A DNA stretch of 64,000 nucleotides from assembly GCF_000816145.1 (NCBI RefSeq), contig NZ_CP007141.1, positions 558,001-622,000 on the forward strand, given 5' to 3'. The notes under the pieces were generated by a model. It made no database searches. It was not told the DNA's origin and saw nothing but the letters and a program-made list of their open reading frames with translations. The stretch is from Pseudothermotoga hypogea DSM 11164 = NBRC 106472 (GTDB taxonomy: Bacteria > Thermotogota > Thermotogae > Thermotogales > DSM-5069). Position numbers and translations under genes: made by a program. This document shows positions 25,034 to 32,432 of the stretch, piece after piece (positions within the stretch are counted from its first letter, which is position 1; each line of letters begins with the position of its first letter).

Positions 25034-26158
25034 TCAAGAAACGTCTATGCCCTTCTCCTTCGCTATTTCCCTCAGTAACTGTGCTTCTTTCATGGAAAGC
25101 CGTTCAGGTATCTTCACGTTCACCGTGACGTAGAGGTCTCCGCGTTTCGCAGTTCTCAGAGATGGAGCGCCTTCTCCCCTGAGCCTGAACACCGTGCCAG
25201 GTTGTGTACCTGCGGGTATTCTGAGCATCGTAGAGCTTCCGTCTGGCAAATCTATGCGCACCGTTGTTCCAAGGATGGCCTGCAGATAGTCTATCGTGAT
25301 CTCGGTGTATATGTCGTCATCTTGACGTTTGAATCTTCTGTCCGGTCGCACATGGACGATAACGTAGAGATCACCGTAAGGTCCTCCGTTATATCCCGCA
25401 TTACCTCCAGCCTCTATCTTGAGTCTGGTCCCATCCATAACACCCGCAGGTATGTTGACTGTCGTTCTGACTTTCTTCTTCAACCTGCCGGTGCCACCAC
25501 AAATGTGGCATCTCTCTTTGACCACACGCCCAGTTCCACCGCAGGTGGGACACGTTCTCGTGCTCACAAAAACACCAAAGATGCTCCTTCTCTCCTCTCT
25601 CAGTATCCCCGAACCGTGACACCTGGGACAAGTTTGATAACCGCTCCCCGGCTCGATCCCATCGCCATGGCAGTGGTCACATACTTCGTACCTGTCGTAC
25701 TCTATGGGCATTTGTTTACCAAGGAGCGATTCTATGAAATCTATTTCGACCGTTACACTGATGTCCTCACCCGCTCTGCGCCTCGCCGTCCTCTGGGCCT
25801 CTTGCGTTGAACCCCTATCGCCAAAGAAAATATCGAAGACATCCCGGCCAAAGAAACTTTCGAAATCTCTGAATATGTCCTCGAACGTGGTGGACGAAGT
25901 CTGCTGTGAAAACTCATGTTCTCCAACGTAACCGAACCTGTCGTACATGGCCCGTTTTTGTGGATCGCTCAGGACCTCGTACGCTTCCTGGATCTCCTTG
26001 AATTTCTCCTCGGCTTGTTTCTTGTTCTCCGGGTGCAGATCGGGATGCCATTGTTTTATCAACTTCTTGTACGCTTTCTTTATTTCCTCTTCAGACGCGT
26101 CCCTCGGAACACCGAGGATCGCGTAGTAATCTTTATACTGTCTGGGCACCGTTGTCAC
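25034..26158 (-). CDS. dnaJ: Chaperone protein DnaJ
   Basis: The 374-residue DnaK co-chaperone has the J domain (residues ~8-72, with HPD in [10 protein letters not shown]). A short Phe-rich linker follows without a marked Gly run. The four zinc-finger repeats are [24 protein letters not shown] and CHICGGTG, followed by two C-terminal substrate domains. It overlaps grpE by 26 bases. dnaK is not in the window, as in other Thermotogales where dnaK is elsewhere. Confidence 0.97.
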
Positions 26159-26672
26159 CTCTCGAAGGTTTCACAGCCACCTTGACCTTCGCTGGCTTTA
26201 GAACCTTAGAATGATACTTGTATCCGTTTTCAACGACTTCGAGCACGTCGTATTCTTCCTTTTCTTTGGTCTCGATTCTCTCAACGGCTTCATGCTCGAA
26301 CGGATCGAACTTTTGACCGACCTCTATTTTGAAAAATCCCTCGTTGTTGAGCAGTTTCCAGAGCTTCTTGTAGATCAACTTCATCCCTTTGTAGAAATCC
26401 TCAAACGTTGCACCCTGTTCAACAGCATTGAAAGCGCGCTCGAGATCGTCGAGCACGGGGATGAGTTTGGTCAGAAGATACTCGTTTGCATTTTTGAGGA
26501 TCATTTCTCTGTCCCTGAGCGTGTCCTTCTTGAAATTCTCGAATTCGGCTTTCAGCTGCTTGAGATATTTTGTGAGCTGTTCCTTCTCTTTTGTGAGCTT
26601 TTCGATCAGGTCCTCCTCGACCGTTTCAGGTTTATTCTCAACCATCTCGTTGAGTTTTTCGTTCTCAGTCAT
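26133..26672 (-). CDS. grpE: Nucleotide exchange factor GrpE
   Basis: The 179-residue protein has the long N-terminal coiled coil ([20 protein letters not shown]) and the C-terminal beta domain with [16 protein letters not shown] and [17 protein letters not shown]. It releases ADP from DnaK. The ATG overlaps the hrcA stop. Confidence 0.95.
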
Positions 26673-27691
26673 CTTTCCACCTCCCGTGTGACCACTGTGA
26701 AGTACTCCGTCAACCTGCTGGTGACGTAAGTCAGGACGTTCATTATCTCCTCGTACTTGATGATCTTTGACGTCACGACAACTATCTTACCCATTGGCTC
26801 ATTCTCCTTGCGATAAGAATCAACGAAAATTGAGAACCTTTCCAGTCCCTGCAAACCGTGCTCACTACCTATAAACACTGCGGGGACTTCCTGAACTCTA
26901 TCCATGAAAGCTTTCAACAATCCGTCGTCAGACAAGAAACGCGAAAGATTCCTTATTTCGTCTATGTTGAACGTCTCACCACTTATGAGAACGTCGAGGC
27001 CGAACTTTATCATGCTGTTCCTCAAATCGTCCTTCAACGAACTGATGAGCTGTTCAGACAAATCTATCAGGGACTCGTCCCAGTCACTTTCGAACACTTC
27101 GCCCGTGAGGCTGTCGATGCTTCTGCCTTTGAGCAATCTGTTCAGCAGATTTTCAAGCATGGAATGATCCACATCAGTGAAACTCCTGAAAGGTATGAAT
27201 TTCATGAGACCCAGTTCCGTTACAACGGAAATCAAGTAATGGTTTTTTGTGATCGGCGTCACGATAGCTCTCAGGATCTTCAAACGGCCTGTGTCAGGTT
27301 TTTCCAGCACCACGGCTCCTTTCGTCATGCGTGCCAAAGCGATCGCCGCTCCTTCAAGAATTCTTTCCATGTCGCCGTACGTCAGAGGATAGCGCACGTT
27401 TATCTGGTGAGACCTCTGCGCGTAGTCTTTGGCGAGCTTCAAGGTTTCGTCCACGTAAAACCTGAAGCCTTTGTCCGTAGGGATTCTCCCAGCAGAGGTA
27501 TGCGGTTGATAAAGATAACCCAGATACTCCAGCTTTCTCAAATCGTTTCTGACCGTCGCAGCACTGCACGAAAGATTCGACACGTTCAAGACGTGCTCCG
27601 AACTCACAGGTTTTTTCGTGATGATGTACTCCCTGACCACGCAGTAAAGGATCTTCTTCTGCCTCTCGTTGACCCGCGCGTCCCGTCTCAT
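26669..27691 (-). CDS. hrcA: Heat-inducible transcription repressor HrcA
   Basis: The 340-residue repressor has the N-terminal winged helix (ERQKKILYCVVREYIITKKP ... SAATVRNDLRKLEYLGYL), the PHTSAGRIPTDKGFRFYV signature and the GAF-like dimer domain. It binds CIRCE and is chaperone-sensitive. The ATG at 27691 is two bases from the CIRCE palindrome, so the repressor shuts off its own gene. Confidence 0.96.
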   Translation of the reverse strand: MRRDARVNERQKKILYCVVREYIITKKPVSSEHVLNVSNLSCSAATVRNDLRKLEYLGYLYQPHTSAGRIPTDKGFRFYVDETLKLAKDYAQRSHQINVRYPLTYGDMERILEGAAIALARMTKGAVVLEKPDTGRLKILRAIVTPITKNHYLISVVTELGLMKFIPFRSFTDVDHSMLENLLNRLLKGRSIDSLTGEVFESDWDESLIDLSEQLISSLKDDLRNSMIKFGLDVLISGETFNIDEIRNLSRFLSDDGLLKAFMDRVQEVPAVFIGSEHGLQGLERFSIFVDSYRKENEPMGKIVVVTSKIIKYEEIMNVLTYVTSRLTEYFTVVTREVER

Positions 27692-27692
27692 A

Positions 27693-27719
27693 TTATCACT
27701 CTCGACATTCGAGTGCTAA
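27693..27719 (-). promoter_or_regulatory. CIRCE operator of hrcA-grpE-dnaJ
   Basis: The plus strand reads TTATCACTC, nine bases, GAGTGCTAA: the CIRCE consensus with one mismatch in one arm. It starts one base after the hrcA start codon's last upstream base and includes the likely hrcA ribosome site (GAGAGTG on the minus strand). Confidence 0.95.
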
Positions 27720-27723
27720 TTTC

Positions 27724-27752
27724 AGCATAGCACAGTTCGTCGTCCTTGTCAA
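27724..27752 (-). promoter_or_regulatory. hrcA operon promoter
   Basis: On the minus strand a perfect TTGACA (27747-27752), a 17-base spacer and TATGCT (27724-27729) place the start of transcription close to the CIRCE element. Confidence 0.88.
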
Positions 27753-27774
27753 GACTGCAAGGTGGTATTAGAAT
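27746..27774 (+). promoter_or_regulatory. murE-murF-mraY promoter
   Basis: TTGTCA (27746-27751), a 17-base spacer and TAGAAT (27769-27774) lie 18 bases before the murE ATG, which has AGAGGTGAT as ribosome site. The -35 box covers the same five bases as that of the hrcA promoter on the other strand. Confidence 0.82.
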
Positions 27775-27792: not shown

Positions 27793-29274
27793 ATGCACAT
27801 TGAAAAAGTGATCGAATCACTGAGACCCATACTCGTCGTAGCCAATTTGGACGGGAACATGAATCATGGGATCAGCGACATTGTGAACAACTCGAGTCAA
27901 GTCAGACCGAATTGTCTGTTTGTGTGCCACAGGGGTAGAAAGTTCGACTCACACGAGATAGCACAGGAAATATACAACAAGGGAGCCTCCCTGCTCGTTT
28001 CCGAACGACCCCTGAACGGTAGCATCCCCCATTTGATTGTCAGCGACACGCGACTCGCAGAGGCCATGCTGGCGGACGCGTTCTTTGAAAAGCCTTACAA
28101 GAAGCTTCTTACCATTGGTGTCACAGGGACCAACGGTAAGACCACGAGTGTTCATCTGTTTCACCATGTGTTGCAGAGTTTTTCGAGTCGTGGCAGTTTG
28201 CTCGGAACCGTTCATTATGAAATTCTCGGCGAGCCCAAGTTCCATCATGACAACACGACGCCAGGTGCCATCGAGATCCTCAGGGCAATGCGTAAGACTG
28301 TCGATAAGGCTGGTTCACACTTCGTGATGGAAGTTTCCTCACATGCGCTTTCTCTAAAACGTGTTGAAACCGTTAGATTTGACATCGCCGCGCTCACGAA
28401 CATAACGAGGGATCATCTGGACTTTCATCAAACCTTCGAAGAGTACACGCAGACGAAACTGCACATATTTGATCTGCTCAAAGAGAATGGCATCGCATTG
28501 ATAAGTGATGAGTACTCGCACCTGCTGAACAAAAAGGTGAGAAAAATCGTCTATGGCATTTCCCGGCAGAGCCATTATCGGATTCAAAACCTTGAGGTCA
28601 GCAAACGGGGGACAAGGTTTGAGATAGAGTGCCCTGCAGGAAAGTACAAACTCTGGATCAGGATCCCCGGTTACCACAACGCCATGAACGCGACTTTGGT
28701 GTTTGCCGGTTTGGTGGAACTTGGTTATGATCCAAACGACGTTGCCGCTTCCATAGCTTCTTTCCAAGGTGTCGATGGTCGTTTCCAGTTCATTCCCGAA
28801 GCTTCCCTGCTTGGGATAGACGTGGTTGTGGATTTCGCACACAGTCCAGACGCACTGGAAAAAACTCTGGTCACCGCGAGACATTTGACCAGTGGTAGGA
28901 TCATCACGGTGTTCGGGGCTGGTGGACAAGCGGACAAAGGTAAGAGGCCGATGATGGCTCAAATCGTGTGCCGATACTCGGACGTTGCGATCATAACGAC
29001 GGACGATCCCAGGGGTGAAGATCCCATCGAGATACTCAACGAAGTTGAAAGCGGTGTGCCATCAGGGGCGGCGTACCTCGTTATCCCGGATCGGCGTGAA
29101 GCGATCGAAACGGCCATCACTCTTGCAAACAGAGGAGATATGGTCGTCATCGCGGGGAGGGGGCACGAAGAGTATCAGATCTTCTCGGACGAGAGAAAAA
29201 TACCCTTCAAAGATGCGGACGTGGCCAGAGAAATAATCGTTCAGGAGTACCAGAGGGAAAGAAGGCATGTTTGA
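27793..29274 (+). CDS. murE: UDP-N-acetylmuramyl-tripeptide synthetase MurE
   Basis: The 493-residue Mur ligase adds the third amino acid to UDP-MurNAc-L-Ala-D-Glu. It has the P-loop GVTGTNGKTT, the carbamylated-lysine and His region HNAMNATLV, and a C-terminal TTDDPRGEDP motif. DDPR differs from the DNPR of meso-diaminopimelate enzymes and is like the lysine-adding Thermotoga enzyme, so lysine is the more likely substrate (inference). It overlaps murF by eight bases. Confidence 0.95.
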   Translation: MHIEKVIESLRPILVVANLDGNMNHGISDIVNNSSQVRPNCLFVCHRGRKFDSHEIAQEIYNKGASLLVSERPLNGSIPHLIVSDTRLAEAMLADAFFEKPYKKLLTIGVTGTNGKTTSVHLFHHVLQSFSSRGSLLGTVHYEILGEPKFHHDNTTPGAIEILRAMRKTVDKAGSHFVMEVSSHALSLKRVETVRFDIAALTNITRDHLDFHQTFEEYTQTKLHIFDLLKENGIALISDEYSHLLNKKVRKIVYGISRQSHYRIQNLEVSKRGTRFEIECPAGKYKLWIRIPGYHNAMNATLVFAGLVELGYDPNDVAASIASFQGVDGRFQFIPEASLLGIDVVVDFAHSPDALEKTLVTARHLTSGRIITVFGAGGQADKGKRPMMAQIVCRYSDVAIITTDDPRGEDPIEILNEVESGVPSGAAYLVIPDRREAIETAITLANRGDMVVIAGRGHEEYQIFSDERKIPFKDADVAREIIVQEYQRERRHV

Positions 29275-30532
29275 GAATGCGAAGTTTGTGATTGACTCTC
29301 GAGAAGCATTCGATGGTTGTGTTTTTGTCGCACTCAAGGGAGAGAAGACGGACGGACATCTTTACGTACGCCAAGCACTCGAAAAAGGTGCGTCCTTGGC
29401 TGTCGTGGAACGAGACGTCGACGTGCCCAAAGAAAAACTGTACCTCGTGAAGGACACCAGGTATTTTCTCCAACAGATGGCAGCACAAAAACTTGCTATG
29501 TATGATCCTCAAATCGTCGGTATAACTGGTTCGAACGGCAAGACGACCACAAAAGAGATGATACATCACTGTCTTGGAAAGGAGCTCGCGTTCAGAAACC
29601 CAGGCAATCTCAACACGGAAATTGGCCTTCCTTTGTCAATTCTGAACGATTATCACGGTCAACCGTACGCGATCTTGGAAATGGCGATGAACAAACCGGG
29701 GGATATATCCACGCTGTGCCGGATCGCTCGACCCCACGTTTCCGTCCTCTTGAACGTTGGCACCGCACACAGGGGTGTGGCGGGTGGAGACGAACAAATA
29801 CTCAGAGGTAAGTTGGAGATCGTTGAGAACATGAGAGAAGATGGCATCGCCATAGTTCACAGCGATCCAAGGATCTTGGAGAAGATCAAAGAAAAGAAAT
29901 TCCTGGCTTTTGGTTTTTACAGCGGCGACTATAAACTCGTATCTTACAAATATGAAGAGTTCTCAACGATAGCTCATTATGAAACGCCTGAAGGAAAGAA
30001 AAAAGTACGTTTCTCGGCGATCTTAAACTTGGGACAGCTGGTGAACGTTGCCGCAGTTTTAGCGGTGTTCGATGTGCTTGGTCTGGATGTTGATCTTTCG
30101 AAGTTCGAAACTTTTATTCCGGTGGATGGAAGATTCAAAGTTATAAAAGTTGATGACGTTTACGCGGTGGATGACACTTACAACGCGAGCTTGGAATCTT
30201 TCAGGATCGCTGTTGAAACGCTCAAGAAACTTGGTAAGAGAGCCTACGCCGTTGTCGGTTCGATAAAGGAACAGGGTATCTACTCCGAGCAAACTCACAG
30301 ACAGCTCGGAAGGATCCTCGAGCAACTGGACGGGGTCTTGGTCTACAACATCGACCACGAGATAGATGCCATGGAATGTTCCAAGATCATCTTGAAGAGC
30401 GATGAGCCAAAGGCCATAGTTGAACAGTTGAGGAACCTGCTCGAGCCGAAAGATGCGGTTCTGTTCAAAGCCTCGCGCGCAGTTGGCATGGAGAAGGTGC
30501 TCGAACTGTTTCTGGGGGGAAAGAAGGCATGA
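29267..30532 (+). CDS. murF: UDP-N-acetylmuramoyl-tripeptide--D-alanyl-D-alanine ligase MurF
   Basis: The 421-residue Mur ligase has the P-loop GITGSNGKTTTKEM, the GNLNTEIGLPLSIL stretch characteristic of MurF and DDTYNASLESF. It completes the cytoplasmic pentapeptide precursor. It overlaps both neighbours by a few bases and its product feeds MraY encoded next. Confidence 0.94.
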   Translation: MFENAKFVIDSREAFDGCVFVALKGEKTDGHLYVRQALEKGASLAVVERDVDVPKEKLYLVKDTRYFLQQMAAQKLAMYDPQIVGITGSNGKTTTKEMIHHCLGKELAFRNPGNLNTEIGLPLSILNDYHGQPYAILEMAMNKPGDISTLCRIARPHVSVLLNVGTAHRGVAGGDEQILRGKLEIVENMREDGIAIVHSDPRILEKIKEKKFLAFGFYSGDYKLVSYKYEEFSTIAHYETPEGKKKVRFSAILNLGQLVNVAAVLAVFDVLGLDVDLSKFETFIPVDGRFKVIKVDDVYAVDDTYNASLESFRIAVETLKKLGKRAYAVVGSIKEQGIYSEQTHRQLGRILEQLDGVLVYNIDHEIDAMECSKIILKSDEPKAIVEQLRNLLEPKDAVLFKASRAVGMEKVLELFLGGKKA

Positions 30533-31434
30533 GATATTTTGCCATCACATTCCTTCCCTGTGTCGTGCTTTATCCATTCCTCATAGAATTGTTCAAAAGA
30601 CTCCGCGTAGGCCAGTTCATAAGGGAAGAAGGTCCGGATCTTCATGGTTACAAGACTGGAACGCCAACGATGGGAGGCGTACTGTTCTCGATTTTCGGAG
30701 CACTTTCGTGTTTCGCTTTTGGATACACGATCGACGGCTTGACGATCTTTCTGTTTTCGTCGATCGGTTTTCTGGACGACCTTTTGAGTGTGATCAAAAA
30801 GACATCACTTGGTCTGAGAGCTTGGCAGAAGTTCTCCCTGCAGATCATTTTCGCGACGGTTCTGTTGATACTGATCAGACCTGATACAAAACTACAGATT
30901 CCGTTCTTACAGAAGGATTTGGATCTTGGCAGGCTCTATTGGATCTTCGCTGTTCTCTTGATAGCCGGGCTGAGCAACGCTACAAACCTTACGGATGGGC
31001 TCGACGGGCTCGCAGCGAGCGTGTTTTTGACGAGCGCAATACCTTATTGGTTCCTGCTCGGAAAGAGTGCAGATTCACTGATTCTATTTTCGCTTAGTGT
31101 GACGGCTTTTTTGTTTTACAACATCAAACCTGCGAAAATGTTCATGGGCGATACCGGTTCACTCGCACTCGGTGCGTTGATCGCCGTGGTTTCGATAAGA
31201 ACCTCCACGGAGATCATAGCGTTACTGTGTTCGAGCATCTTTGTTGTTGAAACACTCAGCGTGATGATACAGGTGAGCAGTTACAAACTCTTCAAGAAGA
31301 GAGTGTTCAAGATGTCTCCCATTCATCATCACTTTGAGTTGCTCGGCTGGAGTGAAGAAAGAATCGTTCAGATCTTCGCACTGACCAACCTAACAGTTTC
31401 AATATTCGTCCTTCTCGGTGAAAGAGCGCTATGA
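30529..31434 (+). CDS. mraY: Phospho-N-acetylmuramoyl-pentapeptide transferase MraY
   Basis: The 301-residue polytopic membrane enzyme transfers phospho-MurNAc-pentapeptide to undecaprenyl phosphate, giving lipid I. The signatures are ATNLTDGLDGLA, the catalytic KMFMGDTGSLALG and MSPIHHHFELLGW. About ten membrane segments are visible. It is slightly shorter than the E. coli enzyme (360) because of a shorter N-terminal part. Four-base overlaps on both sides show coupling. Confidence 0.95.
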   Translation: MRYFAITFLPCVVLYPFLIELFKRLRVGQFIREEGPDLHGYKTGTPTMGGVLFSIFGALSCFAFGYTIDGLTIFLFSSIGFLDDLLSVIKKTSLGLRAWQKFSLQIIFATVLLILIRPDTKLQIPFLQKDLDLGRLYWIFAVLLIAGLSNATNLTDGLDGLAASVFLTSAIPYWFLLGKSADSLILFSLSVTAFLFYNIKPAKMFMGDTGSLALGALIAVVSIRTSTEIIALLCSSIFVVETLSVMIQVSSYKLFKKRVFKMSPIHHHFELLGWSEERIVQIFALTNLTVSIFVLLGERAL

Positions 31435-32432
31435 AGAAAAGTTTGCTACTTTATCTCTTGCTGACCTGCTCGCTGCTTGCACACAGGATCGAGTCGATCG
31501 GTGTGGGATACGGGTACACGAAGATGACGCTCAACGAAGGTATCGTGTGTTTGATCAGGCCGAAACCAGCCTCGGTCTTGGTTCTGACGGATTCCGGGCA
31601 ATTCCTTTCGGAGATATCTGTAGGTCTTTCGTACCCGGTCTGGGCGGTGCACCACGCAGGAAACGTCTTTGTGAGTGACTATCACAGAGCAAGCGTCGCA
31701 GTCTACACCATCTTCGGACGGCTGGTGAAACGCATCCAGGTGGGAAGTTATCCAACAGTTTTGAAGACCTTCGGTGGAAAACTCTACGTGCTCTGTTCCA
31801 AGAATCCGTCGATTTACAAGGTCGATCTTGAGAAACTCGAAGTCGAGAACACGTTCGTGTTCGATTCACCTACGCTCTACTTCGAACCAACTCACGATGG
31901 AATCGTCTACCTTCACTACTACGCGACGGATAAAACCCTCGAGTTCGTGGGCGCGCAAAGGAAGTCTTTGACGATCAAAGGCTTCAGAACGCCTCTCAAG
32001 TACGTCCAAAAGGGCGGGCGAGCTTACCTGCTCGGCTACATGGACGGTAAGCTCGCCTGTCTGGACTCTTCATGGACAATTCTCTGGCAACAAAACCTGG
32101 ATGACCTTGCAAGGGACATGCTCGTCACGGATGATCTTGTGGTGGTCGGCAGTTTGGTTGAACCAAGATTGACGCTCGTTGACTTTTTGGGTAGAATCGT
32201 GAAATACCTACCTCTGCCTAACACCGTTCACCGACTGGAACAAATCGGGAACTTCATAGTCGCATTGAACCACGTCCCTGGTGAAGTCTACCTCATCGAA
32301 CTTCAGACAGGAAAAATCGACGTTGTCCAGGTCGGTGAGTACGCTGTGGAAATGTGTAAAACAGCAGATGAGAGGCTCATCGTCCTGTGCTCGGACTCGG
32401 GACAACTCTTTTTGATCACGCCTTCACTTTGA
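31431..32432 (+). CDS. Secreted beta-propeller-like protein of unknown function
   Basis: No named family recognised. After a signal peptide (KKSLLLYLLLTCSLLA) the 333-residue protein consists of repeated ~40-residue units of short strands such as VWAVHHAGNVFVSDYHRASV, TVLKTFGGKLYVLCSKN and QIGNFIVALNHVPGEVYLIE. The pattern resembles NHL/WD-type propellers. It is translationally coupled to mraY, so a periplasmic role in wall assembly is possible. Its last 17 bases overlap the 3' end of acpP on the other strand. Confidence 0.65.
   Translation: MKKSLLLYLLLTCSLLAHRIESIGVGYGYTKMTLNEGIVCLIRPKPASVLVLTDSGQFLSEISVGLSYPVWAVHHAGNVFVSDYHRASVAVYTIFGRLVKRIQVGSYPTVLKTFGGKLYVLCSKNPSIYKVDLEKLEVENTFVFDSPTLYFEPTHDGIVYLHYYATDKTLEFVGAQRKSLTIKGFRTPLKYVQKGGRAYLLGYMDGKLACLDSSWTILWQQNLDDLARDMLVTDDLVVVGSLVEPRLTLVDFLGRIVKYLPLPNTVHRLEQIGNFIVALNHVPGEVYLIELQTGKIDVVQVGEYAVEMCKTADERLIVLCSDSGQLFLITPSL

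Follow-up and report, generated by a model that had tools for sequence, protein, structure and literature searches.

In Pseudothermotoga hypogea the heat-shock gene hrcA and the cell-wall gene murE are transcribed divergently from a gap of 101 bp, in which the −35 elements predicted for the two promoters fall on the same bases. This raises the question of whether one −35 can genuinely serve both promoters and, if so, whether competition between polymerases would couple heat shock to cell-wall synthesis. The window analysed here is a 64,000-nt stretch of contig NZ_CP007141.1 (the genome is this single contig, of 2,165,416 bp).

Layout of the hrcA/murE control region

The genes and control elements, with the evidence for each, are as follows.

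24987–24970, after dnaJ: intrinsic-terminator-like hairpin (terminator scan)
25034–26158, minus strand: dnaJ (TIGR02349, 433.7 bits)
26133–26672, minus strand: grpE (best NCBIfam models GrpE, E 3e-33, under their equivalog cut-offs)
26669–27691, minus strand: hrcA, heat-inducible transcriptional repressor (TIGR00331, 218.9 bits, cut-off 197.2; ATG at 27691)
27693–27719: CIRCE operator, predicted HrcA site, TTATCACTC-N9-GAGTGCTAA (one mismatch; 0.02 expected in the window)
27724–27729, minus strand: predicted hrcA −10, TATGCT, with a TGC (TGn) extension (sequence inspection; 95% mean column identity in the Pseudothermotoga-type family)
27752–27747, minus strand: predicted hrcA −35, TTGACA, 17-nt spacer to TATGCT
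27746–27752, both strands: predicted shared −35, TTGTCAA, 7 bases inside the 9-bp palindrome-like CTTGTCAAG (invariant in 10/10 Pseudothermotoga-type and 16/16 Kosmotogaceae loci)
27746–27751, plus strand: predicted murE −35, TTGTCA, 17-nt spacer to TAGAAT
27769–27774, plus strand: predicted murE −10, TAGAAT (sequence inspection; family conservation of TANAAT at 17 bp)
27793–29274, plus strand: murE (NF001126, 481 bits, and TIGR01085, 479 bits, both above cut-off; ATG at 27793)
29267–30532, plus strand: murF (TIGR01143, 348.7 bits; 8 nt overlap with murE)
30529–31434, plus strand: mraY (TIGR00445, 253 bits; 4 nt overlap with murF)
31431–32432, plus strand: fourth gene of the murE operon, 333 aa (assigned by its 4 nt overlap with mraY)

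The leftward operon is hrcA-grpE-dnaJ, with hrcA first, an overlap of 4 nt between grpE and hrcA and the terminator-like hairpin at its end; the solved structure nearest to its HrcA is that of an HrcA homolog (1stz, E 3.6e-77). The rightward operon consists of murE-murF-mraY and the fourth gene, its members overlapping by 4–8 nt. The 333-aa product of this last gene had no match in NCBIfam or Pfam, and its sequence, judged by eye, is beta-propeller-like. A gene for a DUF4912 protein (PF16258; 24226–24888) lies just past the dnaJ terminator and has a promoter-like site of its own.

Read from left to right, the gap holds CIRCE, the hrcA −10, the shared TTGTCAA, the murE −10 and a Shine-Dalgarno sequence abutting murE. 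The original prediction, that TTGACA of hrcA and TTGTCA of murE cover the same bases on opposite strands, each with a 17-base spacer and a good −10 box, was borne out in its coordinates, strands and spacings. Transcription of hrcA is predicted to start at ∼27717 (a leader of ∼26 nt) and that of murE at ∼27781 (∼12 nt, mostly the Shine-Dalgarno AGAGGTGATC), i.e. 64 bp apart. Both leaders fit the classes mapped in T. maritima (11–17 and 26–32 nt), where the sigma motif likewise combines a 17-bp spacer with TGn −10s (PMC3636130). The murE −10 of P. hypogea is without the TG extension carried by most relatives. By sequence, the pair are back-to-back overlapping divergent promoters, with overlapping polymerase footprints, a common TTGTCAA and spacers of 17 bp on both sides.

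Essential to the interpretation, and absent from the original prediction, is the CIRCE operator. It conforms to the inverted repeat TTAGCACTC-N9-GAGTGCTAA with one mismatch, lies at the promoter of the operon that itself encodes HrcA (TIGR00331 above cut-off) and is conserved in relatives. Relative to the predicted hrcA start it spans about −2 to +25, and relative to that of murE −88 to −62; since it sits at the hrcA start and clear of murE, HrcA would be able to shut the hrcA side only. Promoters under CIRCE control are typically derepressed in heat. The genome holds two CIRCE sites, at hrcA and at groESL, and the latter was rejected as a second shared case, its promoter showing no shared −35. 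In the arm nearest hrcA (27693–27701), GAGTGATAA replaces GAGTGCTAA in the Pseudothermotoga-type family and in a third family (f10), as it does at groESL here (L003, 1501–1527); at hrcA a few bases at most separate this arm from the start codon, and it could also serve as a Shine-Dalgarno element.

Chance and conservation

The overlap of the two hexamers was rejected as evidence in itself. Any TTGACA followed by A automatically gives TTGTCA on the opposite strand, so that the overlap alone is weak evidence: TTGTCAA, read opposite TTGACAA, matches the −35 consensus at five of six positions, and among 50 Thermotogota loci without adjacent murE, 25 still read TTGTCA opposite the hrcA −35. Judged from the sequences, the telling evidence is the predicted murE −10 at the right distance, the overlap being uninformative by itself. 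In the 2.17-Mb genome, the only match to the strict symmetric pattern ANNNTA-N16-TTGTCAA-N16-TANNNT is the one at hrcA/murE, and a reversed-pattern control has 0 occurrences genome-wide; a first-order Markov model, with looser spacers allowed, gives a chance expectation of ∼0.1 per genome.

We located hrcA in 98 of 103 Thermotogota genomes and analysed 97 upstream regions. A divergent murE adjoins it in 10/10 Pseudothermotoga-type loci (f1), in 15/16 Kosmotogaceae loci (f9) by alignment, in 20/20 loci of f10 and in 1/3 of f11; families f2, f3, f4, f5, f7 and f8 have no such case. The sixteenth Kosmotogaceae locus is cut by a contig edge and has the same control region. The 26 loci of the first two families, from nine genera, all have an unchanged TTGTCAA and, at exactly 17 bp, a murE −10 of the form TANAAT, with a TG extension in most of them. 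The search for this overlap in other Thermotogota, suggested originally as a check, was positive at 26/26 loci in these two families and to some extent in the third. In the Pseudothermotoga-type family the mean column identity is 100% for the shared box and 95% and 92% for the two −10s, versus 56–59% for the spacers (intergenic length 101–107 bp; mostly 126–137 bp in Kosmotogaceae). The shared promoter is also the top-scoring murE candidate in 10/10 Pseudothermotoga-type loci and in the 15/15 Kosmotogaceae loci with an alignable murE.

Loci without adjacent murE had no murE-type −10 (0/50, including the 25 with TTGTCA opposite); within TTGTCA loci, Fisher's test gives p ∼1e-10, relatedness being ignored. 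The murE-type −10 depends on murE being the neighbour of hrcA. Conservation in relatives places the predicted shared promoter beyond chance and bears out the earlier claim that the putative promoters of both genes are real.

The trees of HrcA and of MurE agree with the families (f1, f2 and f3 group together), so the arrangement looks inherited rather than transferred, and horizontal transfer was rejected on this match. Most simply, the hrcA/murE neighbourhood would be ancestral to the class and lost where murE moved off. The predicted shared −35, kept in two families, is a deeply conserved form of overlapping divergent promoters.

The third family provides partial forms and separations, with 12 of its 20 loci lacking a strong shared murE promoter. 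The full shared form is retained in G046, and seven genomes of one genus (g32) have a weakened shared box with TGTAAAAT, reading TTGTAA for murE and TTTACA for hrcA. In G053 (L085) a TTGTCAAATAA-like sequence occurs twice in tandem, the hrcA −10 and the murE −10 each having a copy of their own at a distance of 17 bp; this is a natural separation of the predicted shared −35 by duplication. In G054 and G055 a murE promoter, TTGTCA-17-TAAAAT, lies ∼100 bp off the hrcA promoter. As the −35s are split or the murE promoter moved in several genomes of this family, coupling is not indispensable; the separations suggest that each predicted promoter functions as its own unit and need not be shared. At five loci of the family (L090, L092, L086, L095 and L096) an inverted repeat near TTTAC-N6-GTAAA occupies the place of the murE −10 of other families, and could represent either an operator or a promoter that has degenerated.

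Polymerase exclusion and its possible consequences

We regard it as highly probable that the gap is a compact bidirectional control region, in which two housekeeping-sigma promoters are fused at the pseudo-palindromic −35 CTTGTCAAG, one holoenzyme fits and HrcA gates the hrcA side. Sigma region 4 would dock on CTTGTCAAG in either orientation, with a single holoenzyme bound at once. HrcA on CIRCE would block hrcA-grpE-dnaJ and leave the murE-murF-mraY side accessible; once it let go in heat, the hrcA promoter would begin to compete for the shared −35. If a holoenzyme covers, as is usual, about −55 to +20, the footprints from starts at ∼27717 and ∼27781 are calculated to overlap by ∼47 bp, and binding would therefore be exclusive. 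Mutual exclusion of the hrcA and murE polymerases, as originally predicted, is thus likely from footprint geometry, with the predicted starts so close together.

For murE, such exclusion would carry a low cost in heat as long as hrcA fires modestly, and a high one only with many hrcA firings a minute. In a steady-state occupancy calculation with assumed firing rates and dwell times, the modelled murE loss is 1–4% at 0.5 hrcA loadings/min and ∼50–70% at 30/min, or 30–70% for hrcA firing at 12–30/min with 2–5 s per event. The model agrees with experiments on E. coli bidirectional promoters that share a −10, in which basal strength brought no interference and strong repression appeared only once one direction was strongly activated (PMC12825309). 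A physiological trade-off between heat shock and the cell wall is possible, if on balance doubtful.

The arrangement could simply be economical. The bases would be common to both promoters since the gap is small (∼100–135 bp), they would be entrenched by mutations hurting both genes, and firing would be too low for a trade-off. This account, to which we give slightly less than an even chance, gains from the short intergenic regions of both families, from the very short promoter regions of Thermotoga genomes (PMC3636130) and from E. coli, where bidirectional promoters at basal activity did not compete (PMC12825309). It gains as well from G053, G054 and G055, which dismantled the sharing with neither gene lost. 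On the other hand, two families have retained the sharing despite free change in the spacers, and a CIRCE promoter, typically freed by heat, is the type of case in which interference was seen.

In the reciprocal switch of the original prediction, seen with HrcA included, heat would free the hrcA promoter from HrcA and occupancy of the shared −35 would substantially lower murE-murF-mraY. The geometry, the one-sided action of CIRCE, the modelled losses at 12–30 hrcA firings/min (assumed rates) and the acrA/acrR precedent (PMC12825309) make this a serious possibility, albeit one that we would expect to fail somewhat more often than hold. The loss of sharing in some relatives weighs against it, as does the main text of a K. 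olearia temperature study, in which just two known heat-shock genes were up at 77 °C and neither hrcA nor murE is named (PMC5674127).

A coupling of the opposite sign, with both operons rising in heat, would follow if negative supercoils between divergent polymerases firing alternately helped both promoters. Twin-domain behaviour of close divergent promoters is established and, with the short distance between the predicted starts, speaks for such help; steric exclusion opposes it, and we consider it improbable.

It is very improbable that CTTGTCAAG is an operator for some dimeric regulator instead of a shared −35. It is indeed a near-perfect 9-bp palindrome, invariant in ten Pseudothermotoga-type loci. 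Yet it stands exactly 17 bp from both −10s, its duplicate copies in G053 each stand 17 bp from their own −10, and loci without murE keep the TTGA of hrcA while the other half partly decays (TTGACT, TTGAAT); the two-way spacing and the G053 duplication in particular disfavour the operator. Least probable of all is a coincidence, with TTGTCA a mere mirror of the hrcA −35 and murE driven elsewhere, e.g. from the plus-strand TTGACC-16-TATTAT at 27669–27696: the mirror effect is real and this alternative matches 10/12 positions, but the murE-type −10 in 26/26 versus 0/50 loci speaks against coincidence, and the alternative was rejected as it never outscores the shared promoter and is present in only one or two close relatives, being absent in most of the family.

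Related systems and biological meaning

The nearest relatives of this layout are the bidirectional promoters described by Warman, Grainger and colleagues (PMC12825309), in which symmetry likewise allows engagement in either orientation and one binding excludes the other. Those promoters have a common −10 and starts ∼10, 18 or 23 bp apart; hrcA and murE have a common −35, a −10 each (27724–27729 and 27769–27774) and a distance of ∼64 bp between the predicted starts (27717 and 27781). The present pair thus falls outside the shared −10 definition, from which its authors explicitly leave out separate divergent promoters. The Pc/Pr pair of plasmid pLS20 (PMC4207663) also has opposed housekeeping promoters on common DNA, with polymerase possibly a regulator itself. 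However, the favoured reading there places the −10 of one promoter over the −35 of the other, not −35 on −35, and a DNA-looping regulator binds across both promoters, whereas the repressor here touches, as far as the sequence indicates, one side only. With HrcA/CIRCE operons (hrcA-grpE-dnaK-dnaJ, groESL) the locus has in common CIRCE at the hrcA start, the order hrcA-grpE-dnaJ and a housekeeping-sigma promoter; unlike them, it lacks dnaK, and its promoter is merged with the one of a divergently transcribed cell-wall operon.

When 84,980 species genomes were scanned for CIRCE, the shared box and TANAAT, every CIRCE match flanked by both hrcA and murE belonged to Thermotogota; scattered matches elsewhere lie beside other genes, without murE, and could be due to chance. 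CIRCE or CIRCE-like promoters with an opposite-strand TANAAT at 17 bp from the −35 were seen in Patescibacteria (L162, L165, L166, L177), Lachnospiraceae (L161, L184), Bipolaricaulota (L195, L211, L214) and Atribacteria (L224). No murE was found beside the matches of these four groups, which may reflect chance or independent origins. A literature search for a shared −35 retrieved overlapping promoters, none with this geometry, a weak absence in a search that covered few subscription papers.

Overall, overlapping divergent promoters are a known class, in which the −35-shared layout represents a new arrangement. In the bacterial bidirectional promoters known so far the common element is the −10; at this locus it is the −35, and only one of the two sides is gated by a repressor. 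We hold it unlikely, if conceivable, that the −35-sharing promoter has been selected since before the split of the Pseudothermotoga- and Kosmotoga-type lineages as a polymerase-only switch, by which HrcA would indirectly license peptidoglycan precursor synthesis and heat would withdraw the licence. The locus offers a clean test case for a link between chaperone supply and cell-wall synthesis made by nothing but competition between polymerases, and natural controls are built in, namely relatives in which the promoters are shared, are separated by duplication or belong to genes that are not neighbours.
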